Positions 40,889 through 46,995 of a DNA stretch of 64,000 bases are shown here, piece by piece. How positions within the stretch are numbered: position 1 is the stretch's first letter; the number at the start of each line of letters is the position of its first letter. The position numbers were made by a program, and so were the translations under genes. Source of the DNA: an uncultured bacterium (lineage in GTDB: Bacteria > Hydrogenedentota > Hydrogenedentia > Hydrogenedentales > CAILVY01). Location of the stretch: positions 62,001-126,000 of the forward strand of contig CALEDJ010000006.1 of assembly GCA_937951485.1 (NCBI GenBank), written 5' to 3'. The notes beneath the pieces are model-generated. The model was not told the origin of the DNA, searched no databases, and saw only the letters and a list, made by a program, of their open reading frames with translations.

Positions 40889-41575
40889 TCACACCGCGCG
40901 ACCCAGCACCTCCACTTCCACATAGTGGTTCATGTCGTTGGCCGTGTTGCCGTTGCTGTACAAGCGCACATACCGCGCCTTCACGCCATCTGCCGGAATC
41001 AGCCGCCCCTTGTGGTTTTCGATATACTCTTTATCCTTGCCCACGCCAAGGCCGGACGAATTGTCATGATCGTTGTTGTACACCGTGGTCACACCGTCCT
41101 TGAAATCCGGGTCGTTGGACACCTGCACCACCACATCGAAGTACACGCGTTTGCCCTCGTGGAAATGCCACACCAGGATCGCGTAAATCTCGTGATCCTT
41201 TTCGAGGTCAATCTGCACCCATTGCAGGCCCGCGCCCAGTTCCACCAGGCTCGTCTTCGCGTAATCCTTGTCGCCGTCGGTGATCTGTTCCAGCCGACCC
41301 ACAATCGGGTTCTTGAAACTGCTGGTCACCGGCTTGCCTCTGGAGACCACCGCCGTGCCTTGCGGCGCCATAAACGGCGGGCGATCTTTGTAATCTTCCG
41401 GCTCCAGGTTCGGACCCCAGTAATCGAGCGGGGTGCCGCCGAAGAACGGCTCAGGAAGTTCGATCGGTACTTCCACCAAATCCTCGGCATGCGCCGTCCC
41501 CAGAGCGCCAAAATACAGGCATCCAGCCACCGCCAAGAGGGCCATCGTCCCACAGATTCCCACGACTTCTTTCAT
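40889..41575 (-). CDS. Exported discoidin-like domain protein, copy 1
   Basis: 228 residues with a signal peptide (AVAGCLYFGALGTAHAED). The mature part resembles a single F5/8 type C (discoidin) domain: GKPVTSSFKNPIVGRLEQIT, DGDKDYAKTSLVELGAGLQW, VQIDLEKDHEIYAILVWHFH and ARYVRLYSNGNTANDMNHYV. Discoidin modules bind glycans or other surface ligands. AAAAGGAG precedes the ATG. A paralogue lies at 42581-43270 with matching segments; mazEF sits between the two. Function unknown. Confidence 0.7.
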   Translation of the reverse strand: MKEVVGICGTMALLAVAGCLYFGALGTAHAEDLVEVPIELPEPFFGGTPLDYWGPNLEPEDYKDRPPFMAPQGTAVVSRGKPVTSSFKNPIVGRLEQITDGDKDYAKTSLVELGAGLQWVQIDLEKDHEIYAILVWHFHEGKRVYFDVVVQVSNDPDFKDGVTTVYNNDHDNSSGLGVGKDKEYIENHKGRLIPADGVKARYVRLYSNGNTANDMNHYVEVEVLGRAV

Positions 41576-41870: not shown

Positions 41871-42203
41871 TCAATAGATACATGCGTCAAGCAAAGCGAG
41901 CACTTCTTCAAGCACGGCGGGGGATGCTTTGCCGATGCGCCTGGCAGCACGACTGCGGAAGTCGAGAGATTTGACCTGTTCAACCATGATATAGCCGGTT
42001 ACCGGTGCATCATCCCCCACGGAGACATGGAAGGGAAAATTGCGGCTGGTGTTGGTCAATGGGCATACGATGGCAAGCCCGGTGTGCCTGGTGAAAAGGG
42101 TGTTGCTGATTACCAGGGCGGGGCGACGGCCTTTCTGCTCATGTCCGGATTGCGGGTTGAAGGTGAGCGATACGTAGTCGCCTTTAGCCGGAATATACGG
42201 CAT
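41871..42203 (-). CDS. mazF: MazF/PemK-type endoribonuclease toxin
   Basis: 110 residues, the usual size. Hallmarks: GDYVSLTFNPQSGHEQKGRR (about 8-27), RPALVISNTLF (about 27-37), and VVCPLTNTSRNFPF-like IVCPLTNTSRNFPFHVSVGD (about 46-65). MazF toxins cut mRNA at short sequence motifs; the recognition site here is unknown. It starts three bases after the mazE stop. Both genes sit on the strand of, and between, two discoidin-like paralogues, suggesting insertion of the module. Confidence 0.93.
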   Translation of the reverse strand: MPYIPAKGDYVSLTFNPQSGHEQKGRRPALVISNTLFTRHTGLAIVCPLTNTSRNFPFHVSVGDDAPVTGYIMVEQVKSLDFRSRAARRIGKASPAVLEEVLALLDACIY

Positions 42204-42206
42204 GCG

Positions 42207-42455
42207 TCACCAGACCTCCCGTCCGATCGGTTCTCCCCACTCCGTCTCTTCCGCGCGATAGTTTTTCGGGATTTGCCGTACCAGTTCCCGAAGATTGCGT
42301 TTCCCCCGGATACGCCGCGTCGGCATAATGGTAATCACGCCGTCCTTCGCGGTGACGGCGACCTCGTCGCCGACGGCCAGCGCTGCCCTTTCGAGGACAT
42401 CTACCGGAAGGCGCAAGCCCTGGCTGTTGCCCCATTTCTGAATTCGGGTGACCAT
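42207..42455 (-). CDS. mazE: MazE-type antitoxin
   Basis: 82 residues from ATG 42455, behind AGGAGA. The N-terminal swapped-hairpin DNA-binding fold is RIQKWGNSQGLRLPVDVLER (about 4-23) and EVAVTAKDGVITIMPTRR (about 32-49). The C-terminal half (KNYRAEETEWGEPIGREVW end) is the toxin-binding tail. MazE neutralises MazF and represses its own promoter. The first open codons at 42482 are less likely as a start. Confidence 0.93.
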   Translation of the reverse strand: MVTRIQKWGNSQGLRLPVDVLERAALAVGDEVAVTAKDGVITIMPTRRIRGKRNLRELVRQIPKNYRAEETEWGEPIGREVW

Positions 42456-42580
42456 GTCGCTGTCTCCTGATGTATAGCCCAAGTATATCCAAACATGATT
42501 TTCCTGTCAAGTAGCGCTGGTGCGTCACACCGCAGGAGCGGTGTGACGAGGGAGATATCGAAGGTTTTTCAGGGGATGTC

Positions 42581-43270
42581 TCACCCACCTTGAGGTATGC
42601 CAAAGACTTCCACTTCGATGTAGTGGTTGTTTGCGCTGTTGCTGTTGCCCTTGGTGTAGAGGCGGACGTAGCGGGCACGCGCGCCGGCAGCGGGAATCAG
42701 GCGGCCTTTGTGGGTTTCCACATAGAGTTTGTCTTTGCCCGCGCCGAGTCCCGCTTCGTTCTCCGTGTCATTGTTGTAAAGAGTGCGCACGCCCTCCTTG
42801 AATTCGGGATCATTCGAGACCTGGACAATGACGCAGAAATAGACCCGCCTGGCGTCATAATTGTGCCAGACGGCGACGGCGTGAATTTCCGCTGTCTCTT
42901 CCAAGTCAATCTGGACCCATTGCAGGCCGGGGCTGAGTTCCACGACGCTTTCCGGACCGAAGCCCTTGTCGCCGTCGGTGATTTGCGCCAGCGTCCCCCG
43001 GCGCGGCGTTGCCACGCTTGCAGTGACGGGTTTCCCGCGCGAGAGCAGCCGGACTCCGTCCGGCACGCGGATGGGCGGAGGTTCGCGGTGGTCTTCGGGT
43101 TCCAGGTTTTCATGCCAGAAATCGGCGGGCCGCGCGTCAGGGTGCGGCGGCGGGTATTCCACCGTCAGGGTTCCCTGCGCGAATGCGCCAAACGCAAAGC
43201 ACAGCAGCCATGCCGTTGGCGCGAAGTGAATGGGCGCAGCGCGTTTCTTCCCTTGGCGTTGCGAAACCAT
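42581..43270 (-). CDS. Exported discoidin-like domain protein, copy 2
   Basis: 229 residues. A signal sequence (APTAWLLCFAFGAFAQ) is followed by the same order of segments as in copy 1: FWHENLEPEDHREPPPIRVP, GKPVTASVATPRRGTLAQIT, LSPGLQWVQIDLEETAEIHA and ARYVRLYTKGNSNSANNHYI. The paralogues share the Pro-rich start, the discoidin core and the C-terminal VEVxG end. No ideal ribosome site precedes the ATG 43270. The two probably arose by duplication and were later separated by mazEF. Confidence 0.7.
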   Translation of the reverse strand: MVSQRQGKKRAAPIHFAPTAWLLCFAFGAFAQGTLTVEYPPPHPDARPADFWHENLEPEDHREPPPIRVPDGVRLLSRGKPVTASVATPRRGTLAQITDGDKGFGPESVVELSPGLQWVQIDLEETAEIHAVAVWHNYDARRVYFCVIVQVSNDPEFKEGVRTLYNNDTENEAGLGAGKDKLYVETHKGRLIPAAGARARYVRLYTKGNSNSANNHYIEVEVFGIPQGG

Positions 43271-43332: not shown

Positions 43333-43638
43333 TCACCATCCGGCGTCGTCAGGAAAGCAGTTGACGTACTTCACGCTGTGGCGCGGTTCGGCCATCATCG
43401 GGGCGACGGCGTCGCGCCAGCGCTGGTAATGCGCGGTTTCCTTATGGCGCGCCGGGGCATCCGCGTCGCGATAGACCTCCACCAGCATGAATCTAGTGGG
43501 ATCATCCTGCTGCTGCAACACATCGAAACGCGCAATGCCGGATTCCTGCATGCTGCTGCGCGCATTTTCCAGCGTCGCCTCCCGGAACGCCTCCACAGCG
43601 TCGGGCTTTATCACGCAATGCACGTGAACGATGAGCAT
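43333..43638 (-). CDS. Antibiotic biosynthesis monooxygenase-domain (ABM) protein
   Basis: 101 residues, a typical single ABM domain: [20 protein letters not shown] (about 5-24), [20 protein letters not shown] (about 33-52), then [20 protein letters not shown]. Members include heme-degrading and quinol monooxygenases and enzymes of unknown activity. AAAGGATGCG precedes the ATG. It stands between the discoidin-like copy 2 and the dynamin-like genes on the same strand, but 40 bases from the latter, so co-transcription is possible. Confidence 0.85.
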
Positions 43639-43680
43639 GATCGCATCCTTTCGGTTGCAATGTCCGTTCGCCGGGAAATC

Positions 43681-45858
43681 TCAATGTGTTGTGGCGGGCA
43701 TGTGCGCATATTCCCTGACAATCGCTTCGGCCTCTTCACGAAGCGTATGAAGCATGGTGACTTTTGGCTCGAGCCGCGTGATGATGGCCTCGCGTTCGCG
43801 ACGGATTTGCGTTTCACGGGCGATGAGTTCGTCGCATTCCCGCTGCACCCGGCCCACTGCGTTGTCCACTTCCTCCTGAACCGCATCGCGGAAGGCCGCG
43901 GCGCGGCGCCGCAGATATTCCGTCACGGATTCCAGCATCGGGGGAGCGGGGTTGCCTTGGCGATCTTTGCCGCCATGGAGGAGCATGTTCATGACGTTTT
44001 CGCGGATGATGGGCAAGAGTTTGCGAATCCAGCGCTCTTCGCTCCAGGCGAGCCGGGCGAGGAATCCGCTGATGACGCCGAGCAGCCCGCCCAGTCCCGC
44101 GCCAATTGCCGTGCCGATTATGGGCACCACGGAACCGACCGCCGCACCCGCCGCCGCGCCGACCACCGCGCCGCCCGCGCCGAAGGCGGCATAGCCGCCC
44201 GCCATCGAGGCGCGGACGTTTTCCAGGTCCACCGCGCCGGGCGCGGTCAGTTGCATGTGCAGGCTGCGCACATCGCCCAGATGCTCCGCGATGGCGTCGC
44301 GGGTGATGCTCTCGGTCTCGTCCACGAAGGCGTTGATCTTGGCGAGAATGCCGGAGACGAATTCATCCACCTGGTGCTCGATGTGCGCGGCCAGCGGCTT
44401 GAACTGATTGCGTCGGGATTCCTTGAGGTTGTTGTCGATCCGCAGCCAGCCCAGAATCGGCTGGATTACATTGACATTGATCGCGCCCTCGACCATCGCG
44501 TCGCGGAACAGCGCCTCGTAACCGGGATAGGTTTCGCCGTCCCATTCGCCGCCCATGGCGCGTGCCTCGTAGCGACACATCACCTGTTCGGCCTTCGTGC
44601 GGACAGTCTCCAACTCGGCCATCAAAGTTTCCCGTTTCGCGCGGAGTTCGTCAAAGAGCGTCGGGTCCTTTGCCAGATTCAATTCGTTTTCCAGGGAAAT
44701 CACAAAATCCGCCGCGCGTTCGCGCACGAACTTCGCCGCCGTCTCCAGCACCTTGCCGGCCTTGTTCTCATTGAGCAGGAAATCCAGCAGCCGCTCCTTG
44801 AGGTGCGGCAGACGGCTCTGTCCCATGAGATAGGCCGCCAGGTCGCGGACGGGATTTTCACTCGCGCGGATGCGGTCCGCCACGCTGGTGGGGAGGGAGA
44901 CGCGGTTGTCGTCCAACACTTCCTGCAGCGTAATGAGGCCGCGCTCCAACTGCTGTGCGCGCAGGGCGCGGTAGCCGGAGAGGAAAAAGATGTCCGGATT
45001 GTCAGGAAGCCCGTGCCGTTTGAACGCCTGCATCAGGCTCCACGCCGGGCCGTGGGCGGCGCGGAGATCAATTTCCTCCGGGTCTATCTTGTCCGCCTTG
45101 TTGAGCACGAAAAACACATGCCGCCCGCGCAGGGTCATGATGCGCTTGATGAAATTGAGGTCGTGGATGTTACCCGCGAAATTGCTGTCCACGAAGCAGA
45201 TGACGAGGTGGCTGTGCTCGATGATGCCGAAGGTGATTTCCTGGCGTGTTTCCGACACGGAATGCACGCCCGGCGTGTCCACGAACACGATGTCCTCTTC
45301 CAGCATCTCGCTGGGGAGAAAGAGGTTGATTTCGTCAATCTTGTCGCGCAGCGGCGCGAGCAGCGGATACGCCTCATCGGCAATCACGGTGACAAGCGGC
45401 TCGAGGCTTTTGCGCATCGCGGCGGGCTTGCCGTTCGGATAGGTCACGCGGATTTCGCGGCCGTCGTTCAACCTGGCGACGGATGCCGGCAACGGCGCGA
45501 TCAGTTCATCCAACGCGGCCACTTCACTGTCCGGAGCGCGTTCGCGCAGGCGTACCCCAAGTTGCAGGGGGCCGCCCCGCTGAATAAAGGTAAGACGCGA
45601 CGTGCATTCCTCGACATCCATGGGCAGAAAATCGCCCCCGAGAAAGGCGTTGATCGCCGTGGATTTCCCCACGTTGAACGCGCCCAGAAAGACCACGCGG
45701 TATTTGCCGTCCTCGACTATCCGGCGCTGATAGCCGATGGCTTTTTGTTCATAGGAGCGGCTGCCCCGGAAATCGTCATCCTCGCGCACGAATCGGCCCA
45801 ATGCGGCCAGCCCCGACAGAATCCATGCGCGCTTGTCTTCATGTTCCCTGAAGTTCAT
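43681..45858 (-). CDS. Bacterial dynamin-like GTPase, large
   Basis: 725 residues. GTPase motifs: G1 FLGAFNVGKSTAINAFLGGD (about 55-74), G2 Thr in CTSRLTFI near 86, G3 FVDTPGVHSVS near 189-199 and G4 FVLNKADKIDPE near 247. A long helical stretch follows. About 548-605 is a glycine/alanine-rich hydrophobic segment, including AFGAGGAVVGAAAGAAVGSV, which could insert in a membrane as in BDLP and DynA/MxA-like proteins. The C-terminus is a coiled coil. The GTPase core and membrane segment argue for membrane remodelling or stress response. A smaller relative overlaps its start by four bases, so they likely act together. Confidence 0.85.
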   Translation of the reverse strand: MNFREHEDKRAWILSGLAALGRFVREDDDFRGSRSYEQKAIGYQRRIVEDGKYRVVFLGAFNVGKSTAINAFLGGDFLPMDVEECTSRLTFIQRGGPLQLGVRLRERAPDSEVAALDELIAPLPASVARLNDGREIRVTYPNGKPAAMRKSLEPLVTVIADEAYPLLAPLRDKIDEINLFLPSEMLEEDIVFVDTPGVHSVSETRQEITFGIIEHSHLVICFVDSNFAGNIHDLNFIKRIMTLRGRHVFFVLNKADKIDPEEIDLRAAHGPAWSLMQAFKRHGLPDNPDIFFLSGYRALRAQQLERGLITLQEVLDDNRVSLPTSVADRIRASENPVRDLAAYLMGQSRLPHLKERLLDFLLNENKAGKVLETAAKFVRERAADFVISLENELNLAKDPTLFDELRAKRETLMAELETVRTKAEQVMCRYEARAMGGEWDGETYPGYEALFRDAMVEGAINVNVIQPILGWLRIDNNLKESRRNQFKPLAAHIEHQVDEFVSGILAKINAFVDETESITRDAIAEHLGDVRSLHMQLTAPGAVDLENVRASMAGGYAAFGAGGAVVGAAAGAAVGSVVPIIGTAIGAGLGGLLGVISGFLARLAWSEERWIRKLLPIIRENVMNMLLHGGKDRQGNPAPPMLESVTEYLRRRAAAFRDAVQEEVDNAVGRVQRECDELIARETQIRREREAIITRLEPKVTMLHTLREEAEAIVREYAHMPATTH

Positions 45859-46706
45859 GCGGCGACTCCTTGCGTCATTTCGGTGAGCGATGCGGCCAAT
45901 GGCATCGTAAACAGCATGTCAAAATCAATATCCCGGTGTCCGGCGGCGTGGCGCGCCTCGAATTCGTACAGCGTCACCCGGAGCGCGTCGAATCCCGCGT
46001 CGCAGCGATCCCGCACTTCGCGCTTCATGCGCATCCGGTATTCGTTTGACTGCAATCCGCGCGCGGCCTCCAATCGCGCCGACAAAGGCAGAAACGGCGG
46101 CGCCGGGCGGATGCCATAGGCTTCCATGCGCAGACGGGCGCGGTCGCTCAGACGTCGGATTTCATCCGCGTTGAGATGGTCCGCCTTGTTGGCCGCCACC
46201 AGCAAGGATCCGCCGAAGACCTGTTGATGATGCGCGATGAAATCCATGGTGTGTTTTGCGGACCAGTACTCGATGTCCGTTACCACCACGAGCAGCACGG
46301 GCGGGCGTGGCGTGGGCAGCGTCAGGCGTGGCGACTCAAACCCGTCGGCCGACATGCCCGCGGTGTCCGCGAACACCAGACTGCGAAACGGCGTGCCCGG
46401 CAGTAATGCGCCCAGCGCGTCAAAGCCGTCCGGGTTTCCCGCTTTCCTTCGAATGTTCAGAAATTCTTCGTGGGTTATCGAAGTCGGCCCCTCCCCCCCA
46501 CGCTTCCATGCCGCAAAATGCGCCTCGCTCAGTTCAGCGCGCGCGAGGAATGTGGGCAGCGCACGGCTCTCCTCCCGGCAAGCAGGCAGCGTCTCCCGGC
46601 GCAATAAAGCATTGATGAGGGCGCTCTTGCCGACATTGAAATCGCCCATGAACAACGCGCAGGGCGGCATTGCGCCCCCCCCGCATCCGACATATGATTC
46701 CAACAT
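45855..46706 (-). CDS. Small dynamin-like GTPase partner
   Basis: 283 residues from ATG 46706, behind AAGGAAAGGACAG; the open frame extends upstream without good starts. GTPase motifs: G1 FMGDFNVGKSALINALLRRE (about 19-38), G3 FADTAGMSADG (about 106-116) and G4 VAANKADHLNADE near 165-177. It lacks the long helical and membrane-inserting part of its partner. Its TGA overlaps the partner's ATG (ATGA). Paired bacterial dynamin-like proteins often form hetero-oligomers, so a two-subunit complex is likely. The ligand membrane is unknown. Confidence 0.8.
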   Translation of the reverse strand: MLESYVGCGGGAMPPCALFMGDFNVGKSALINALLRRETLPACREESRALPTFLARAELSEAHFAAWKRGGEGPTSITHEEFLNIRRKAGNPDGFDALGALLPGTPFRSLVFADTAGMSADGFESPRLTLPTPRPPVLLVVVTDIEYWSAKHTMDFIAHHQQVFGGSLLVAANKADHLNADEIRRLSDRARLRMEAYGIRPAPPFLPLSARLEAARGLQSNEYRMRMKREVRDRCDAGFDALRVTLYEFEARHAAGHRDIDFDMLFTMPLAASLTEMTQGVAA

Positions 46707-46995
46707 GACTGTCCTTTCCTTCGGGAATGTTGTTGTGTTCTGTTTTCTGGAAACGTCGTGTGGGGGGGCGATGCCCCACCCGGCCGAGGCGGCTGGTTTG
46801 CGTGCATAGTGTAGCATGTGCCTCGGGCGCGGTGCGAGCATGGCGATCCGCCAGTGATGCGACGTTTCGGGGGCCGCAAATATGCCTGCCGACTGGATGA
46901 TATCGCAAGATGCACCATCTGCTAATACTGCCGAAAACGCGTTCTTATCCGGCGGGGAATTAGGTCTTGACAAAAGAAATGCGGTTCGTGTTAGA
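46707..46995. other. Intergenic stretch upstream of the acyl-CoA dehydrogenase
   Basis: Divergent spacer between the small dynamin-like gene and the acyl-CoA dehydrogenase gene. Apart from the promoter/operator at 46967-47021 and GGG-rich tracts, no gene is seen. Confidence 0.5.

Follow-up and report, generated by a model that had tools for sequence, protein, structure and literature searches.

Why do bacterial dynamins come in pairs, and what can a partner contribute that consists of a G domain with no stalk? This question is touched by a locus in a 64,000-nucleotide stretch of DNA from an uncultured bacterium of the phylum Hydrogenedentota (contig CALEDJ010000006.1, positions 62,001 to 126,000), referred to here as the window; coordinates are counted from its first letter unless a locus is named. 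Bacterial dynamins are often encoded as operon pairs, and in the Cj-DLP1/2 pair hydrolysis requires heterotypic dimerization of the G domains (PMC6104087). The pair in the window is an asymmetrical one, with a large and a small protein.

Organization of the Gene Pair

On the minus strand, the small gene lies upstream and is followed by the large gene. The following features define the arrangement:

45855..46706, minus strand: small gene, 283 aa, predicted stalkless dynamin-type G domain (translation; AF2 model with pLDDT 85; top Foldseek/VIA matches IniA and mitofusin)
43681..45858, minus strand: large gene, 725 aa, predicted BDLP/IniA/mitofusin-like dynamin with a complete G domain, stalk and hydrophobic tip (Pfam, AF2, Foldseek/VIA)
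45855..45858, minus strand: ATGA overlap of 4 nt, the stop of the small gene and the start of the large gene (reading of the ORFs)
45866..45871, minus strand: AAGGAG, Shine–Dalgarno-like site for the large gene, located within the small gene (sequence reading)
46712..46716, minus strand: AAGGA, Shine–Dalgarno-like site of the small gene, which supports the ATG at 46706 (sequence reading)

Both start codons thus have a Shine–Dalgarno-like AAGG(A/G) at 5–8 nt upstream. As far as gene layout goes, these adjoining, overlapping genes with homologous G domains constitute a bacterial dynamin pair. The first-pass annotation had described an overlapping large and small dynamin-like pair, and this is upheld by the reading frames, the ATGA overlap, the Pfam Dynamin_N match of the large protein, and the fold and profile of the small one. 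The overlap would couple the translation of the two genes, with both chains produced from one mRNA, and the fixed stoichiometry that was proposed from it may follow. A promoter scan returned one promoter-like match upstream of the small gene, with a match count equal to that expected by chance. A 913-aa ORF on the plus strand (43378-46119), running across the large gene, was attributed to chance, as an antisense frame in GC-rich DNA.

The Large Protein

The large protein matches Pfam Dynamin_N with 77.1 bits against a cut-off of 27. It carries one G domain and not two, and the key residues of G1–G4 are invariant among its relatives, which occur either with a small partner (partnered) or without one (solo). 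The motifs are located as follows:

45661..45684, minus strand: G1/P-loop GAFNVGKS, residues 59-66 (alignment)
45598..45612, minus strand: switch I EECTS, residues 83-87, with T86 as the G2 threonine, invariant in pair and solo relatives
45268..45279, minus strand: G3 DTPG, residues 194-197 (alignment)
45091..45102, minus strand: G4 NKAD, residues 253-256 (alignment)
44050..44193, minus strand: Gly/Ala-rich hydrophobic tip, approximately residues 556-603, candidate membrane paddle (hydropathy; low model confidence at 541-584)

The AF2 model, with a mean pLDDT of only 76, shows N-terminal neck helices, the G domain and a long bundle of helices, with a tip that is poorly modeled. Predicted helices at residues 336-535 and 607-718 flank this tip, in which a Gly/Ala stretch (approximately residues 562-603) reaches a 19-residue hydropathy of 1.94. 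The nearest structures in Foldseek and VIA are BDLP, IniA, the mitofusins and SynDLP, with BDLP and IniA ranking highest in Foldseek. Judged by its model, the large protein belongs to the BDLP/mitofusin type of dynamins, and its tip is presumed to insert in the membrane.

The Small Protein

In the AF2 model of the small protein (pLDDT 85), a single long helix follows a compact G domain. Its predicted fold gives VIA Z scores of 21.3 with IniA and 19–20 with mitofusin 1/2, as opposed to about 14 with EngB and Era. An hhalign profile-profile comparison with the G domain of the large protein yields 98.8%, ungapped across switch I, and Pfam Dynamin_N gives 20 bits, below the cut-off of 27. Predicted fold and profile-profile match both identify the small protein as a dynamin-type G domain. 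Assignment as an Era/EngB-like ribosome GTPase was rejected, as the structural match is weaker than that to dynamins and no NCBIfam cut-off is reached.

Neither a stalk or middle domain nor a membrane-binding element is found in its 283 residues, which end in the single long helix. There is also no hydrophobic segment, the 19-residue hydropathy of the window protein having a maximum of 1.09 versus the 1.94 of the large tip, in line with a putative membrane part on the large side only. The motifs of the small protein are as follows:

46623..46646, minus strand: G1/P-loop GDFNVGKS, residues 21-28 (G, D, N, G, K and S invariant in the family)
46548..46577, minus strand: switch I REESRALPTF, residues 44-53, with R48 aligned to the large G2 threonine T86 (hhalign)
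46356..46367, minus strand: G3 DTAG, residues 114-117 (D and G invariant)
46251..46271, minus strand: EYWSAKH loop, residues 146-152 (E146, Y147, W148 and H152 invariant in 16/16)
46179..46190, minus strand: G4 NKAD, residues 173-176 (motif alignment)
45948..46022, minus strand: C-terminal helix, residues 229-253, with the conserved VRxxCDAGFDALRVALYEFEA (alignment and AF2)

The EYWxAKH loop aligns in hhalign with a loop of the large protein carrying DSxxxGNxH. The key difference from the large protein lies in switch I. The G2 threonine is kept in all 16 partnered large proteins, whereas none of the 16 small proteins has it; the column holds arginine in 14, histidine in one and methionine in one. 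The small protein had been described as little more than a GTPase, and this holds with respect to the stalkless G domain; the label “GTPase” itself needs a caveat because the G2 threonine is missing. Loss of this residue is no proof of lost hydrolysis. Going by its motifs, the small protein probably binds GTP and hardly hydrolyzes it. In five of the 16 relatives NKxD has become NMxD; these form one whole lineage, family f10 (L096, L097, L098, L100 and L101), and the change suggests altered guanine binding there.

The two proteins could in principle be the domains of one chain divided between two genes, as in LeoC/LeoB. The genes adjoin in the LeoC/LeoB order with the P-loop in the upstream part, and the best PADLOC match of the large protein is LeoBC, at a weak 60.6 bits. 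However, the large protein has a complete set of G1–G4 and N-terminal neck helices, and the G fold of the small protein is likewise complete, with G1, G3 and G4. This split-gene reading was tested and rejected because each chain carries its own G motifs, and it is regarded as extremely improbable. The NCBIfam LeoA/HP0731 model (NF041922) scores 25.4 bits on the large protein against a cut-off of 325, which is not reached.

Conservation and Evolution of the Pair

The small family is present in 19 of 68 Hydrogenedentota genomes, and all 14 named matches of the genome scan belong to Candidatus Hydrogenedentota. Lack of conservation had been named as an argument against the pair, and the opposite is observed: in the 17 genomes where the contig resolves the locus, the large gene always directly follows the small one, and in the other two of the 19 the small gene sits at a contig end. 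The genes overlap in 16 of these 17, by the 4-nt ATGA in 12 and by 7–14 nt in four, with a 140-nt gap in the last. Such a recurrence speaks against a chance arrangement.

A wider search covered 386 genomes, with thresholds of E 1e-30 for the large protein and E 1e-12 for the small profile. The large protein was found in 41 genomes, all in the order of the host, comprising 19 of the partnered and 22 of the solo type. None of the 41 holds both types. Solo-type proteins are 32–39% identical to the large protein of the window (where measured), and no small-family match at E 1e-12 occurs in their genomes; therefore, the partner is dispensable for dynamin function in general. The sole outside match to the small profile in this search comes from a distant genome (G270), where it falls on the G domain of a 588-aa dynamin that has no small neighbor.

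In a maximum-likelihood tree of 34 large proteins, 16 partnered and 18 solo members fall on two sides of one branch with a support of 100/100, so that a single gain or loss of the partner is enough to account for the pattern. The confinement of the co-occurrence to one clade of one phylum likewise suggests that a single evolutionary event may be responsible. In the G-domain tree, the small proteins form one long-branched clade outside the large proteins. Because of these long branches, the tree does not settle whether the small gene originated by duplication of the large one.

Could the small protein be a decaying remnant, left when the second partner of an ancestral symmetrical pair lost its stalk, and of little function now? 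The missing G2 threonine and the altered G4 in 5/16 members agree with decay, as does the mean distance of 0.52 among small proteins versus 0.44 among large ones, indicating that the small protein evolves faster. Nonetheless, the frame is intact in all 16 full-length members of the alignment, 44 columns are invariant, and the two genes evolve under purifying selection, with a dN/dS of approximately 0.07–0.14 for the small gene. A remnant is thus disfavored and held to be very improbable.

Distances among the small and the large proteins correlate with an r of 0.90, a value that shared descent also predicts. Among columns conserved in partnered large proteins, those that differ in solo ones number 20 of 63 in residues 186-300, the stretch from switch II to past G4, and 21 of 151 in the rest of the protein (p 0.004 by Fisher test, in a contrast of two clades with the region boundary picked after the counts were known). 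Such an enrichment is what a changed G-domain contact would leave, with partner binding inseparable from other changes in this comparison.

Genomic Neighborhood

A survey of conserved neighbors had been suggested for this locus, and it gave the following picture. In families f1 and f11, an acyl-CoA dehydrogenase gene lies divergently upstream of the pair. Beyond the pair on the downstream side, 10 of 16 partnered loci encode F5/8-type-C proteins whose N termini resemble signal peptides; this protein family occurs nearly throughout the phylum (61 of 68 Hydrogenedentota genomes). Flanks shared across families in this manner are consistent with vertical chromosomal inheritance. The downstream genes of the window are as follows:

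40889-41575 and 42581-43270, minus strand: two F5/8-type-C (discoidin-like) genes, the only two copies in the genome, within 5 kb downstream of the pair
41871-42203 and 42207-42482, minus strand: genes for a MazF/PemK-like toxin and a MazE-like antitoxin, flanked by the two F5/8-type-C genes

The MazEF-type toxin-antitoxin pair is 1.2–1.8 kb from the dynamin pair and outside the conserved core.

In seven genomes, representing three families (f3, f9 and f11), the large gene is followed by a third gene of approximately 210 aa, often with the same ATGA overlap (e.g., L091:7755-8381, minus strand; L093:5688-6320, plus strand; L095:11312-11935, plus strand). Its product has a hydrophobic stretch that could form two transmembrane helices, and it reaches no Pfam family cut-off. 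The third gene was not found in genomes of the phylum outside the partnered clade. It is missing from the genome of the window, where an ABM-domain gene comes after the large gene.

The first-pass annotation had suggested a phage-stress role, and an anti-phage or abortive-infection system built on the dynamin pair is the corresponding rival reading. DynA of Bacillus has been reported to delay phage lysis (PMC8844932), and Leo-type dynamins, to which the large protein is weakly matched, are included in PADLOC-DB. On the other hand, the neighbors tested against PADLOC-DB gave no match to defense genes, and a pattern scan of viral contigs found none encoding a relative, a result by which a mobile or viral origin was also rejected. 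The distribution is vertical across the clade and the flanks are conserved between families. With no defense context, no viral copies and vertical synteny, phage defense is therefore unsupported and is considered improbable.

At solo loci, no common gene stood out as a hidden partner beyond family-local synteny. Within the solo clade, the dynamin gene of family f7 (L075, L080 and L081) is preceded at approximately 80 nt by an ORF of 835–838 aa and followed by one of 333 aa.

A separate observation concerns a second, this time symmetrical, overlapping pair of GTPase proteins of approximately 590 aa each, encoded in one genome on contig C7 (L135:3843-5630 and L003:31-1800, both minus strand). 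These proteins pass Dynamin_N by a small margin, and hydrophobic segments are apparent in them.

Proposed Mechanism

The preferred reading, with a probability of roughly 60%, is a heterotypic asymmetric dynamin, in which a switch-I-deficient G domain is the obligate partner of the membrane-bound large protein, pairing with it and gating it. The arrangement suggests a two-part dynamin that contacts the membrane through one part alone. The Gly/Ala tip of the large protein would insert in the membrane, and the small protein would dock onto it G domain to G domain, across the nucleotide pockets. Dimers between the G domains of two large proteins would link adjacent stalks or opposing membranes. 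Dimers between large and small would replace or time these, with hydrolysis triggered in the large subunit only. As GTP is probably bound and hardly hydrolyzed, the small protein would function as a nucleotide-dependent activator or gate. The cellular task is likely to be housekeeping remodeling or repair of the cell membrane.

An analogy in principle is provided by eukaryotic proteins. Septins of the SEPT6 group have no switch-I threonine and serve as non-hydrolyzing subunits of heteromers (PMC8640212), and GIMAP2/GIMAP7 likewise illustrate a subunit unable to hydrolyze alone within G-domain heteromers (PMC8201404). Septins and GIMAPs differ in being eukaryotic and not dynamins, so that they serve as an analogy only. 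Seen in this light, the most likely role of the small protein is that of a G-domain partner which binds GTP, hydrolyzes it poorly and gates the cycle of the large protein.

Activation and inhibition by the small protein are not distinguished by the sequence. As a negative regulator, the small protein would cap the large G domain and block dimers between large proteins, so that the dynamin would stay soluble and inactive pending a releasing signal. The contact evidence is the same as for the gating partner, a G domain with no stalk, tip or G2 threonine is a natural cap, and co-translation would permit its immediate binding to the large protein. However, the P-loop, G3 and most of G4 are strongly constrained, which may be needless for a cap; this argument is tempered by the weakened G4 of one lineage. 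A purely inhibitory role is on balance unlikely.

A further conceivable, if doubtful, scheme has the small protein as a pseudo-GTPase locked with GTP, completing the active site of the large protein in trans, e.g., through the conserved switch-I arginine. Only the heterodimer would then fire, and the membrane-bound and the soluble G domain would share catalysis between them.

Relation to Known Dynamin Pairs

Among known categories, the locus fits the bacterial dynamin pair best, as a variant with one partner cut down to a switch-I-deficient G domain. Fused DynA and unlinked examples had been listed among the known pairs; this list is incomplete, as the linked LeoBC/LeoA (PMC4159319) and Cj-DLP1/2 (PMC6104087) are the closest precedents.

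The LeoC-LeoB/LeoA system of E. coli ETEC H10407 resembles the present pair in its linked dynamin-like genes, short upstream P-loop protein and glycine-rich paddle in the full-length partner, and heterotypic action has been proposed for Leo (PMC4159319). Of the G domain, LeoC contains just the portion with the P-loop and switch 1, and it also has a membrane anchor (PMC4159319). One G domain is thus spread over two chains in LeoC and LeoB, with LeoC anchored, whereas here each chain has its own. The small protein differs from LeoC in having no membrane part and a full G fold with G1, G3 and G4.

Cj-DLP1 and Cj-DLP2 of Campylobacter jejuni are likewise an operon pair of dynamins, but each has a G domain, neck and trunk, unlike the stalkless small protein (PMC6104087). 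They form a 2:2 tetramer via an N-terminal assembly domain that has been called Campylobacter-specific (PMC6104087). Bacillus subtilis DynA, a fused pair, and Nostoc BDLP1 share the BDLP-like fold of the large protein. In DynA, membranes are bound by the D1 half only (PMC4159319). The other half of DynA is itself a full dynamin within that single chain, whereas the second G domain here is separate, stalkless and without the G2 threonine. The NCBIfam DynA model (dynamin GTPase, NF052648) gives 22.4 bits on the large protein against a cut-off of 1600, which is not reached. The G domains of IniA and the mitofusins are the closest structures to the small protein, but they reside within full-length membrane-acting proteins.

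No such pair is described in the literature searched, in which subscription papers and preprints are thinly covered. The published pairs compared here have stalks on both sides or consist of a split chain. A natural pair with a G-domain-only partner isolates the G-domain contact and could be used to test whether heterotypic G-dimerization alone drives the cycle, with the solo clade in the same phylum as a built-in matched control.
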